Below are positions 24,148 to 28,239 of a stretch of 64,000 nucleotides of DNA, one piece after another. A model generated the notes under the pieces. That model was given only the letters and a program-made list of their open reading frames with translations. It was not told where the DNA came from and did no database searches. Positions within the stretch are counted from its first letter, which is position 1. Every line of letters begins with the position of its first letter. The stretch is from positions 680,001 to 744,000 of the forward strand of contig NZ_CP047242.1 of NCBI RefSeq assembly GCF_009856605.1, written 5' to 3'. This DNA comes from Trichormus variabilis 0441 (GTDB taxonomy: Bacteria; Cyanobacteriota; Cyanobacteriia; Cyanobacteriales; Nostocaceae). Position numbers and translations under genes: made by a program.

Positions 24148-25314
24148 ATACTAAATTGGGAAAGGAAGTATTAATTGAATAACTGAGGTCAAATTTGGCA
24201 AATCCAATCAAACCCAACCTTGCCATGAACAATTTGAGGGTGAGACATTAACCATTGACAACGAGAAATTAACACAGTTTCTAGTTCATCGAGAGTAGAA
24301 AACATCTGATTAGCAACAGCTTCACGTAGAAGCGACCAAACACACTCAGTCGGTTGGAGTTGAGGTGTATAAGCAGGCAGAGGAAACAGAATGATACCAG
24401 CTGGCAACATTAATTGTTTACTGGTATGCCAACCAGCTTGATCAACAAGCAAAACAATGATTTTGTGATGATGAGGATTGACTTCAGCGGCAAAAGCATC
24501 TAAAGCCATTTGCATGACAGCAATGTTGACTCTGGGTAAAATCAAGAAAAAACTCTCGCCAGTAGCTGGATGGACAAATCCATAAGTATAAAGCCATTGG
24601 TAACGAGTGCGATGCACAGCATTGGGACGATGACCTACTGGTGTCCAAACTCGACGGACGATGGGTTTGAGGCCTAATCGAGCTTCATCTTCTGCCCAAA
24701 CTTCAACTGATTTGTGCGGATGGAGGAAACGTAACAATCGCACAAACTCCGTTAACTCAGTTTTAAACATCTGTCTTTGAACAAAAGTTGCCGCCTCAGT
24801 ATGCAGAGGTCGTGGTTGTTGCAGACTAAATCCTAGCCTTTTGAGGTAATCCCAAGCTGTAGTGACATGGAGTGTAATTCCAAACTGTACTCGGATCAAT
24901 TCCCCTACTTTTGGCGCACTCCATAACCCCCCATCTTCTGGTGGTGAAGCTAACCTTTGGCGCAACCACTGTTGTTGCTCGTTTGTGAGTGCAAGTTTTT
25001 TTCCTCCTGGTTTCAGTTTCTGTTGATTGATGATTCCGTTTGCTCCTAGCTTGTTGTATCGCCGCACGATTTTTCTCACCCAGTCCCCTGAGAATCCCAC
25101 AATCTCTGCTACCTTTTGCGCTGACAACTGTGGTTGTTGATTGAGCAATTTAATCACTAACCATCGGGTTTTCTCTTGTGCATCTTCACATCGGCGATAA
25201 CTTTGTTCTATTTCTTCTGTTGATAGATGCTCTGTTAGTTTTATCCTGGGACGTACCATTTTTCTAGCCTTTTTCCCTCTGCTTCAAATGATACTACCTT
25301 TCCCTATTCAGTAT
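24148..25314 (-). mobile_element. complete IS630-family insertion sequence
   Basis: Left end 24148-24179 begins ATACTAAATTGGGAAAGG; the right end (25283-25314) read in reverse begins ATACTGAATAGGGAAAGG. The two 32-bp ends differ at only a few positions. IS630 elements insert at TA and duplicate it; TA dinucleotides at 24149-24150 and 25312-25313 could be that duplication, giving an element of about 1.16 kb. It carries one intact transposase gene. It sits between the formamidase and the Hsp70-like unit without disrupting either. Confidence 0.88.
24189..25259 (-). CDS. IS630-family transposase
   Basis: A 356-residue transposase. The N-terminal winged helix-turn-helix pair (LSAQKVAEIVGFSGDWVRKIV and WSAPKVGELIRVQFGITLHVTTAWDYLKRLGF) binds DNA. 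The DDE catalytic residues are in VWAEDEARLGLKP, IIVLLVDQAGWHTS and LQPTECVWSLLREAV. No frameshift or stop is seen and the full family length is present, so the element may be active. Start at ATG 25259, just inside the right inverted repeat. Confidence 0.95.
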   Translation of the reverse strand: MVRPRIKLTEHLSTEEIEQSYRRCEDAQEKTRWLVIKLLNQQPQLSAQKVAEIVGFSGDWVRKIVRRYNKLGANGIINQQKLKPGGKKLALTNEQQQWLRQRLASPPEDGGLWSAPKVGELIRVQFGITLHVTTAWDYLKRLGFSLQQPRPLHTEAATFVQRQMFKTELTEFVRLLRFLHPHKSVEVWAEDEARLGLKPIVRRVWTPVGHRPNAVHRTRYQWLYTYGFVHPATGESFFLILPRVNIAVMQMALDAFAAEVNPHHHKIIVLLVDQAGWHTSKQLMLPAGIILFPLPAYTPQLQPTECVWSLLREAVANQMFSTLDELETVLISRCQWLMSHPQIVHGKVGFDWICQI

Positions 25315-25404: not shown

Positions 25405-27327
25405 TTATTGAATCAAAATTATTGCCTCTTGCACCTTATTAGAAAGAGCTTTTTGTAGTCCTTGCTCAACTTTACTAATTAGTTCGTTAAAAGCATCTTG
25501 ATTTGCTGTCAATTGTTCTTGAATTACCTTGTCTAACTCAGGCTTAACTTGTTTACACATATCTTCAATTTTCCGGTCGTTCAAAAAACTAGAACGAATC
25601 CAACTAGGAACATTGACATTTGTTTTAATTGCCTCTTTCACCGTCTCTCGATTTAGCTCCATACCTGCTGCTATTACCGAAGCCCCGTAAACTAATGCAA
25701 TAGGCCAGGTCAAATGTCCAGTCAGTATGAGAGTGATGATACTGGCGAGAGTACCACCACCAATTAAAACATTAACGATGAATGCTACGGTTTCGCCTAA
25801 GATAGCGTCTCCAATACGCAACTCTGGGTTAACTAAAGCAGGCTCAATACTATCTTCAAATCTCAAACTGCTTCTGGGTATATGGAACTTGCGACATATC
25901 GGGTCAGTTTCTGCGGCTAAATCTGGTTGAATTTTCTGATTAAACCAACTGATACATTGGTTGTTAACTATCTTTTGAGCTATATCACTTTGCAGCCACT
26001 TTTCTGCTCGCTGCTTCATGGAGGTTTCCAAATCAGCTAAAGTACGGATTTGGTTTTTTTGCCAATCTTTTACTCCTGGTCTAACTGCGTTCTCAATTAA
26101 CCCCTCGGCTAATGGCTTGGTCAAGGATTCTATTAACTCTGGAATATGTTTACCAATCAATTCTTTGAGCTGGTTGGATTCCAACAGTTTATTGACTTCT
26201 TGTTTAAAAGCATTAGCTCGTAAGTCCCAGCGTCCCACCCGCGCTAAACCCAAGGCAATACATCTTTCTGGCTCTGGGTCTGGACGCAGCAGGGTTTGTG
26301 GTTCAGGGAAAAATTCCTGACAAAGTTGATGGGTAAATTTCATCCGAGATGCACCACCAGTCATTAACACTAGTTTCGGTGTGATACCTTGCTGGTCTAA
26401 CTTTTGTTTTGCTTCCTTTAATGCTGAGTGAAATGATTGTAACCAACTTTTTTCCCCTAGTTCGGGTAAAGGTTGGTTCAATATTTCTTCCATCATTAAT
26501 TTGTTGACTTGGGGGATAAAATAAATCTGTTCGTTGATAGATTCAAAGCCACGGGCAAAGGATTGAGAATCGCTATAAAGCTGTTCGTTAGAAAAGTAAT
26601 CTTCCTTAGCTTTGCGACAGGCTAATTCACAACGCGCTTGATGATGGGGATATTCCTGAAATACTTTTTCTAGTAATGACTTTTGTTCGTGTTTGGCGAG
26701 AGTTTTAGTAAAAATAGCTTGATCAATTAAAGATGCTCCTAAAGCATTATTACCAAAATCTAAAGGTATTTCTTGTAAGCTTTTAACTAAGGTAAAATCT
26801 GTAGTTGAAGAACCAATATCAACAATTAGTACTGACGAAATAAGTTTTTCATATTCTAGTTTCCCGGCTTCCTTAGCCTGCATAAAAGCTGCCCTTGATT
26901 CGGGAACAACATTTAGCAAAGAAATGCCGGCTTGTTGTAGTAGTTGTCGATATTCGGAACGTTCTTTCACTGACCATCCTGAAGGACAACCAACGTAAAA
27001 GTAAGTATTGTCTTGAGTTTCAATTTGCCTACTTTGTTTTAGTAGGTGGTAGTAGGTGGCAATAAAAGTACTAATGGTTTTGCGATATTTGGGATCGTTA
27101 TTGGGTTTTTCCTTGAAAGTAATTGCTAGTTGCGTCACACCAGCTTGAATTAAGGCTTGTTCACCGACTAGATAACCTAATTGAGGATGCCAACCCAGTG
27201 CTGTGATTTGGTTTTTTTTGTTATTAATCTCCAACATTTGGGGCGGTTCGATACTCTCCACAATTGCCTTAGCAACTGCTGTTTCACCGTGTCCCAAATC
27301 AAAACCGACTATTTCTAAAATTTCCAT
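25405..27327 (-). CDS. Hsp70/actin-type ATPase fused to a C-terminal membrane hairpin
   Basis: A 640-residue protein. Residues 1-365 form an Hsp70/actin-fold ATPase: phosphate-1 loop VGFDLGHGETAVAK (7-20), phosphate-2 loop VLIVDIGSSTTDFTL (166-180), adenosine motif LVLMTGGASRMK (319-330). There is no standard Hsp70 peptide-binding domain. Residues 370-500 are helical, 510-557 contain two hydrophobic stretches (GETVAFIVNVLIGGGTLASIITLIL and WPIALVYGASVIAAGM), and the last 80 residues are amphipathic and polar. This suggests a nucleotide-driven switch attached to a membrane. It lies 12 bp after a gene for a two-helix membrane protein, so the two are surely co-translated. Not DnaK or MreB; resembles poorly studied Hsp70-like proteins. 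Function unknown. Confidence 0.8.
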   Translation of the reverse strand: MEILEIVGFDLGHGETAVAKAIVESIEPPQMLEINNKKNQITALGWHPQLGYLVGEQALIQAGVTQLAITFKEKPNNDPKYRKTISTFIATYYHLLKQSRQIETQDNTYFYVGCPSGWSVKERSEYRQLLQQAGISLLNVVPESRAAFMQAKEAGKLEYEKLISSVLIVDIGSSTTDFTLVKSLQEIPLDFGNNALGASLIDQAIFTKTLAKHEQKSLLEKVFQEYPHHQARCELACRKAKEDYFSNEQLYSDSQSFARGFESINEQIYFIPQVNKLMMEEILNQPLPELGEKSWLQSFHSALKEAKQKLDQQGITPKLVLMTGGASRMKFTHQLCQEFFPEPQTLLRPDPEPERCIALGLARVGRWDLRANAFKQEVNKLLESNQLKELIGKHIPELIESLTKPLAEGLIENAVRPGVKDWQKNQIRTLADLETSMKQRAEKWLQSDIAQKIVNNQCISWFNQKIQPDLAAETDPICRKFHIPRSSLRFEDSIEPALVNPELRIGDAILGETVAFIVNVLIGGGTLASIITLILTGHLTWPIALVYGASVIAAGMELNRETVKEAIKTNVNVPSWIRSSFLNDRKIEDMCKQVKPELDKVIQEQLTANQDAFNELISKVEQGLQKALSNKVQEAIILIQ

Positions 27328-27339
27328 ACTACATATTGT

Positions 27340-28239
27340 CTATGATTCTCTGGCTTGCGAGTATGCTGGCTCAATTACCCTACCCCGTCTTAGCAAGCGA
27401 TCGCCTCTCAACAAAGCTGGCGTAATCGTGACATAATCTTGGTTATCAGGGTCGATACTTGGCTCAAAGTCAAAATAAGTGCGATCGCTATCAGGTTCTT
27501 TTGCTTGGTAAATTTGAGCGCGAATCCCTTGAGACATCAAAACTTGTGGCAAAAGTTTCGTTAGTTCCATCACCATCTGGGGTTTATTCAAAGACGACGC
27601 ACCCATAAGTCTTTGCAAGAAATTCAAGAGTTCCGGCAATTCTTCCATATTCCGTTCATCTTTGGCTTTGTCAGAGTCAGCAAATCTAGCAACTACTAAA
27701 TCGATAGTGTTGAGTGCATCACTCAGTTGAGCTAAAAGAATTGTGCTATCTACTTTGAGGATAGGTTTAGCTAGTTCCCTGACCTCCGGTAAGCTTGAAC
27801 CATTTTTATCAAGTTGCAGCACCACCTCCAATCCTAGCAGCACAGAAGCGAGTAAAATCCCCATCCATGCGCCTGGGGTGGTATTTGTTAGATAAAATAA
27901 CCAACATAAAATACCTGCATAAAGTAGTACTTTTAGCACTTTCAAAATTAATCTATTGGGGGAAGACGTAAGCGCTAGATTAGTAATTTGTTGATGTTCT
28001 GCTACCTCAATCTGAGCAATTCCAACCGCCCCAAGAGTGGGGATTGACTGACGCAACACATCTAAAAAAAATGCAGCTAAACGCACTTGAGTTATATTGA
28101 GTTCGCTAACATAAATTCTTTCTAGATTGTCAAGTTCATTTTGAACGAGTTTAACTACATCTTCAATATTACTTAAGTTATTAATCTCTGTCTGAAGTTG
28201 ATTACCTTCTTCGCTAAAAAGTGAAGTTATCGTTTTCAT
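27340..28239 (-). CDS. membrane partner of the Hsp70-like ATPase, unknown function
   Basis: A 299-residue protein with no family I recognise. Residues 1-95 are helical and acidic (coiled-coil-like segment IEDVVKLVQNELDNLERIYVS). Two transmembrane helices span about 98-118 and 123-143, separated by a short TNTTPGAW turn, so both ends face the same side. Residues 150-299 are soluble, with helices around LAQLSDALNTIDLVVARFADS and FLQRLMGASSLNKPQMVMELTKLLPQVL. It is the first gene of a two-gene operon; the downstream ATPase also has a membrane hairpin, so the two probably form one membrane complex. Confidence 0.75.
   Translation of the reverse strand: MKTITSLFSEEGNQLQTEINNLSNIEDVVKLVQNELDNLERIYVSELNITQVRLAAFFLDVLRQSIPTLGAVGIAQIEVAEHQQITNLALTSSPNRLILKVLKVLLYAGILCWLFYLTNTTPGAWMGILLASVLLGLEVVLQLDKNGSSLPEVRELAKPILKVDSTILLAQLSDALNTIDLVVARFADSDKAKDERNMEELPELLNFLQRLMGASSLNKPQMVMELTKLLPQVLMSQGIRAQIYQAKEPDSDRTYFDFEPSIDPDNQDYVTITPALLRGDRLLRRGRVIEPAYSQARES

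Follow-up and report, generated by a model that had tools for sequence, protein, structure and literature searches.

A two-gene unit of Trichormus variabilis 0441 encoding an Hsp70-type ATPase with a membrane hairpin and a probable GrpE-like membrane partner

Described Hsp70-type systems and the A-B locus

Hsp70 proteins are understood as peptide-gripping machines. We describe here a pair of adjacent genes, A and B, in which an Hsp70-type ATPase predicted to lack its gripping domain stands beside a membrane protein that is probably its nucleotide exchange factor. The pair sits in a 64-kb stretch of the 7.1-Mb genome of Trichormus variabilis 0441 (G000:C1:680001-744000), the whole of which we call the window. 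Among described systems, the GAP1-N2 GTPase-centred conflict systems include HSP70, GrpE and a second HSP70 'sans its peptide-binding domain' (PMC7159879, in excerpt), and the CnuD protein of the CoCoNuT systems carries a nucleotide-binding domain and a substrate-binding domain (SBD) and belongs to McrBC-type systems (PMC11090510, in excerpt).

Like DnaK-GrpE, the locus combines an Hsp70 nucleotide-binding domain with conserved ATP-site residues and a predicted GrpE-like C-terminal domain in the partner, within a two-component unit, whereas A appears to lack the substrate-binding beta sandwich, B has no GrpE match in Pfam, hairpins occur on both proteins and the unit includes no conserved J-domain gene. 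The GAP1-N2 systems likewise encode, close to an exchange factor, an HSP70 ATPase domain that lacks the peptide-binding part; in contrast, only B is conserved beside A, and the excerpted text of PMC7159879 mentions neither a membrane hairpin on that HSP70 nor a membrane-anchored GrpE. CoCoNuT systems resemble the locus in having an Hsp70-like ATPase in multi-gene systems, some with a glycine-zipper protein or an FtsK/HerA-superfamily ATPase, whereas A appears to be without the SBD of CnuD and no gene besides B is conserved at the pair (PMC11090510, in excerpt). MreB, ParM, FtsA and MamK share the actin/Hsp70 ATPase fold and give weak Pfam and NCBIfam matches, whereas the fold and profile scores of A favour Hsp70. 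The pair was not found described in the literature searched, including the excerpts of PMC7159879, PMC11019930 and PMC11090510. It appears to combine known parts (an Hsp70 ATPase and a probable exchange factor) in a new arrangement, in which the gripping domain is swapped for a membrane hairpin, and we consider it likely that the two proteins together make up a membrane-anchored machine of the Hsp70 type with its own GrpE-like exchange factor.

The two-gene unit and its proteins

The A-B pair is a real two-gene unit. A survey of 291 genomes of the order found 51 with A, 51 with B and 50 with both, so that 50 of the 52 genomes with either gene hold both (A is alone in G420 and B in G486), a co-occurrence with a Fisher's p of 4.4e-54, uncorrected for kinship. 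The genes adjoin in all 49 genomes that have both on one contig (in G452 they lie on two contigs); B is directly upstream of A on the same strand, at 1-408 nucleotides (nt), in 48 of these, and 58 nt downstream in G312, which was scored as adjacent from its coordinates. Note that this count treats the A pieces of G262 as one and disregards a second piece in each of G469 (A), G461 (B) and G486 (B). In G486, B stands in two pieces with no A match, which suggests a unit in decay.

A species-genome scan, restricted to the top 80 of 197 confirmed relatives (79 loci), gave the same picture: B is present at 78 of the 79 loci and lies within 300 nt of A or overlaps it at 74, with two genes between them in L122 and no B found on A's contig in L118. 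Over 86 loci (L047, which is the same contig as L045, was left out of the neighbour count), 85 have B no more than 6 kb from A, the next commonest neighbour family reaches 23, and conservation around the pair extends to no third gene; in addition, A and B distances correlate with r 0.98, kinship being left in. A first-pass annotation of the window had proposed the closely spaced genes as a unit, a proposal that a partner not conserved next to the ATPase in relatives would have refuted; the unit is borne out, and B stands beside A in relatives, apparently as far as a Phycisphaerales metagenome-assembled genome (L077).

Both genes are real, as homolog conservation and low ratios of non-synonymous to synonymous substitution (dN/dS) show. 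Indeed, A shares 80-93% identity over 100% of its length with the best 120 of its 973 relatives, B shares 65-98% over 98-100% with the best 120 of its 688, and dN/dS against six relatives (~0.06-0.10 for A, ~0.14-0.26 for B) indicates purifying selection on both. The listing of open reading frames reproduces the two frames at the exact ends previously given. No Pfam or NCBIfam family is above its cut-off for A or B of the window, so that assignment to a well-known family with a defined role, which would have spoken against the first reading, did not occur. The nearest named relatives of the proteins point to the Anabaena/Nostoc group. The public names listed for relatives of A are 'Hsp70 family protein', 'molecular chaperone DnaK (HSP70)', 'plasmid segregation protein ParM' and 'hypothetical/uncharacterized protein', and those listed for B are 'hypothetical protein' or 'uncharacterized protein'.

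Protein A is Hsp70-like, yet no complete Hsp70. Its Hsp70/actin-type ATPase domain is backed by profile comparison and predicted fold: both fold searches list Hsp70-type chains throughout their first 50 rows, one unnamed chain excepted, and the A profile aligns with DnaK over 308-340 columns (E-values down to 1.4e-11, over 340 columns), against 1.3e-5 over 151 columns for MreB of the same genome, a comparison, made with a single MreB sequence, that leaves A nearer to Hsp70 than to MreB. The ATP-site motifs had been called intact, and residues D10, K72, E143, D170 and T175 are identical in 60 of 60 aligned proteins and D177 in 59. In the profile alignment, D10, E143, D170, T175 and D177 align with the ATP-site motifs of DnaK; K72 falls near, yet off, the exact column of the catalytic lysine. 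The window protein itself gives no Pfam HSP70 row at E up to 1 and does not reach the curated HSP70 cut-off. In the 60 aligned proteins, at E up to 0.01, HSP70 matches 24, MreB_Mbl 24 and ParM_N 11.

Beyond this domain, the arrangement first noticed by eye (a helical region, a double hydrophobic segment and a polar tail) is recovered in the model and in hydropathy. DSSP assigns stalk helices at residues 386-393, 395-423, 430-445 and 448-480 and no strands; since no strand occurs past residue 349 of the model, the beta sandwich and helical lid of an Hsp70 substrate-binding domain are not seen, and the prediction supports an A without the Hsp70 peptide-binding domain. In the loop of the hairpin, 55 of the 60 aligned proteins have letters and a charged residue occurs in 0 of the 55, and the modelled tail contains helices 560-570, 575-581, 584-608 and 610-639. 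The hairpins of A and B have low model confidence (predicted local distance difference test, pLDDT, under 50 in parts), and the topology of both proteins therefore rests on hydropathy and short loops. Two other assignments were considered for A and not adopted: a dynamin-like helical membrane domain at its C terminus, for which PADLOC gave weak hints (LeoBC, E 0.042, in the L046 relative; PDC-M09A, E 0.0025, in the window A), and DUF445 (9 of 60 proteins, best E 0.001; 2 of 10 proteins scanned, across helical stretches), which was taken as helical background.

Protein B has the two hydrophobic helices that were originally reported. Its hairpin loop carries charge (0.6 K+R and 1.2 D+E per 10 amino acids (aa) in 39 aligned relatives), and glycine-zipper families of Pfam match 10 of 39 B members at E up to 10. 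Hydropathy suggests, as had been proposed, that the soluble parts of A and B lie on one side. It was probably wrong to call the partner unrelated, since the C-terminal third of B resembles GrpE in fold searches. Indeed, GrpE chains head the Foldseek list, and the model and profile alignment agree with GrpE in the order of helices and six strands and in register. Comparison of B with 23 GrpEs by hhalign gave a weak P of 0.041 (0.069 after removing two divergent GrpEs), with ten shuffled controls at 0.14 or more and reversed GrpE at 0.52, and the C-terminal part alone gave 0.023 (local) and 0.0034 (global). A GrpE-like fold for this third of B is supported by modelling and fold searches and weakly by profile comparison, not proven. 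The features of both genes are given in Table 1.

Table 1. Coordinates of the A-B locus in the window and the evidence for each feature
Feature	Position	Strand	Description	Basis
Gene A	25405..27327	(-)	640-aa Hsp70-type ATPase with C-terminal membrane hairpin	open reading frame, homologs, alignments, model
A residues 1-383	26179..27327	(-)	Hsp70-type nucleotide-binding domain	model, fold search, profile, residue conservation
A residues 384-509	25801..26178	(-)	helical stalk in place of Hsp70 substrate-binding domain	DSSP of model
A residues ~510-556	25660..25800	(-)	double hydrophobic segment (membrane hairpin), uncharged loop	hydropathy, loop composition
A residues 557-640 and stop	25405..25659	(-)	polar helical tail	model
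B-A intergenic spacing	27328..27339	(.)	12 nt; B directly upstream of A	
Gene B	27340..28239	(-)	299-aa membrane protein, predicted GrpE-like C-terminal domain	open reading frame, homologs, model
B residues 1-72	28024..28239	(-)	N-terminal helical region	model
B residues ~94-143	27811..27960	(-)	pair of hydrophobic helices (membrane hairpin); in some relatives resembling a glycine zipper	hydropathy, model
B residues 201-295	27355..27639	(-)	predicted GrpE-like domain (short helices followed by six short strands)	model, fold searches; weak profile support

Proposed cycle and competing explanations

In the cycle that we infer, including the membrane concerned, the cytosolic orientation of the soluble parts and the output, A would bind and hydrolyse ATP through its Hsp70-type nucleotide-binding domain, which would be wired directly into the helical stalk, the membrane hairpin and the polar tail. 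B, hairpin-anchored in the same membrane, would present its GrpE-like domain on A's side, contact A, open its domain, release ADP and restart the cycle. Because A appears to be without a peptide-binding domain and its ATPase domain is tied to stalk and hairpin, the ATP-driven movement would go to the stalk, the membrane, the tail and their cargo, and not to a captured peptide. Our best guess for the output is that a membrane protein complex is assembled, remodelled or gated. The nucleotide-gated membrane complex of the first-pass annotation keeps a plausible outline, in which A-B contact is presumed and gating or a channel would be a guess; overall, the observations of that annotation are confirmed and its interpretation is partly supported. 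If the proposed cycle is true, this widespread pair would show an Hsp70 cycle acting on membranes and offers a simple two-protein system for testing it. A bolder reading, which we hold only tentatively, is that of a distinct membrane motor class, in which the Hsp70 cycle drives membrane-complex work and is coupled in one branch to a HerA-type pumping ATPase as a transport or defence machine.

Among the alternatives, the pair may be a conflict (defence) module acting as an NTP-driven membrane sensor or effector, a rather doubtful proposal that is compatible with the membrane-anchored Hsp70-type machine. It draws on a predicted conflict system with HSP70 and GrpE genes (PMC7159879, in excerpt), on parallels in the excerpt of PMC11090510, and on the patchy presence of the pair, the occurrence of A on a conjugative plasmid and one branch beside a HerA/CedD-like ATPase (see below). 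In addition, an A relative in L045 matches the candidate defence model PDC-M61B of PADLOC across the ATPase domain (E 1.2e-5). In contrast, PADLOC gave nothing significant for the window proteins (the PDC-M09A candidate model is the best for A, and B has none at E up to 0.1), the pair has no conserved third neighbour, both genes evolve slowly under purifying selection, and the window neighbours look housekeeping.

It is unlikely, in our judgement, that the resemblance of B to GrpE is due to chance and that B, in line with the first-pass annotation, is no more than a membrane subunit anchoring A or gated by it. Several results do weigh against the exchange factor: B has no significant match to a GrpE sequence family, since 0 of 39 members fall below E 0.094 for PF01025 (GrpE), in Pfam listings that cover the 25 most-matched families (of 70 and of 27), the first of which would by itself leave room for a single match; filter-free hmmsearch gave weak E-values of 0.13 (the best with the GrpE model) and 0.0049; and the structure comparison with GrpE reached a middling Z, with low overall model confidence. 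Of 60 column-shuffles of the profile comparison, a single one outscored the real alignment in each mode and the other 59 fell below it; the better local shuffle (3 aligned columns) is read as a numerical artefact and still counted. Against chance, the GrpE idea was framed ahead of the fold search, the GrpE chains led the resulting list with helices, strands and register in agreement, and the neighbour of B is an Hsp70-type ATPase, the partner for which GrpE is known. B is probably a GrpE-like nucleotide exchange factor for A, as judged from modelling, although its sequence places it outside the GrpE family and it would work like GrpE at best; a GrpE-like B would make the pair an Hsp70 with its cognate exchange factor and not an ATPase with an unrelated membrane protein.

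A membrane-anchored actin-like filament (MreB/ParM/FtsA/MamK style), with ATP driving polymerisation and B as anchoring or capping factor, was raised by the evenly split Pfam matches, the ParM-like names of several public records and one A relative with two ATPase domains in one frame, but is improbable given the Hsp70-type fold searches, the alignment with DnaK that is longer than that with MreB, and a GrpE-like partner that suits an Hsp70.

Distribution, the HerA branch and neighbouring genes

The pair is patchily distributed. In a survey of 292 cyanobacterial genomes, A was found in nine (E below 1e-30) and B in the same nine; A matched 20 genomes in all, of which 11 weak matches (E 3e-7 to 9e-4) were taken as other Hsp70s and left uncounted, and one extra weak match of B (G190) was taken as chance. 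A repeat survey with the A profile returned the same nine of 285 genomes. The genome studied here has the pair, and four surveyed genomes of the same genus are without it. Outside the phylum, it apparently also occurs in L077, a metagenome-assembled genome of the Planctomycetota. Among 72,556 plasmid records, A is found on one, a conjugative plasmid of Calothrix brevissima NIES-22, where the gene upstream is B (E 3e-87). This B (L172 8018-8824) is short (268 aa), with a portion also readable in another frame, and may therefore be broken, with A intact. A phage or viral origin was considered and rejected: within the limited reach of these searches, no A relative was found among phage records, and none of 48 stretches of viral contigs that matched the pattern encodes one.

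In one branch, the two-gene unit can be incorporated into a larger system. The order in G262/L047, L048, L049 and G111/L046 is B, A, then a ~900-aa HerA/CedD-like ATPase with its own hydrophobic stretch by hydropathy, followed further along by a protein of 105-110 aa and by a putative zinc metallopeptidase of the HExxH type. Variants of A in this branch include two ATPase domains in one frame (G262) and two A genes (L048); in L046, A has no hydrophobic segment, and B and the HerA-like protein each keep one. Relatives of the HerA-like ATPase occur in 17 of 291 genomes at E up to 1e-10, four of them close (E below 1e-200); the close gene is directly downstream of A in G111, G262 and G375 and on a different contig from A in G345. 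Among the 79 species-scan loci, the HerA-like gene was seen only in L047-L049. No match was found in the genome studied here, so that the unit stands alone in the window, and a HerA-like gene as a fixed third component is rejected for the window's branch.

The five-gene set (L045 7794-17012 and L046 1732-12218; also L047, L048 and L049) has the appearance of a larger system for transport or conflict. The metallopeptidase copy of L046 is narrowly above the cut-offs of two metallopeptidase-type models of Pfam, and a single 1078-aa frame (L045 12771-16007) carries two tandem Hsp70-type ATPase domains ahead of one membrane tail.

Other GrpE-like proteins were noticed in the genome studied here, outside the window. 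A 214-aa protein (L159 6463-7107) has a GrpE-like domain (34 bits, PF01025) and an N terminus resembling, by eye, an XRE-type regulator, in a stretch where no Hsp70 gene was recognised by eye. A chaperone-like run (L158 5834-12424) encodes a 737-aa Hsp70, 148-aa and 915-aa proteins, a GrpE-like protein (62 bits, PF01025) and a 204-aa protein that looks J-domain-like.

The surroundings of the pair vary among relatives. In the window, the gene upstream is presumably that of a glycogen branching enzyme, as recognised from its sequence, and A is adjoined downstream by an open frame (24189-25259) that we take, by eye, to encode an IS630-type transposase.
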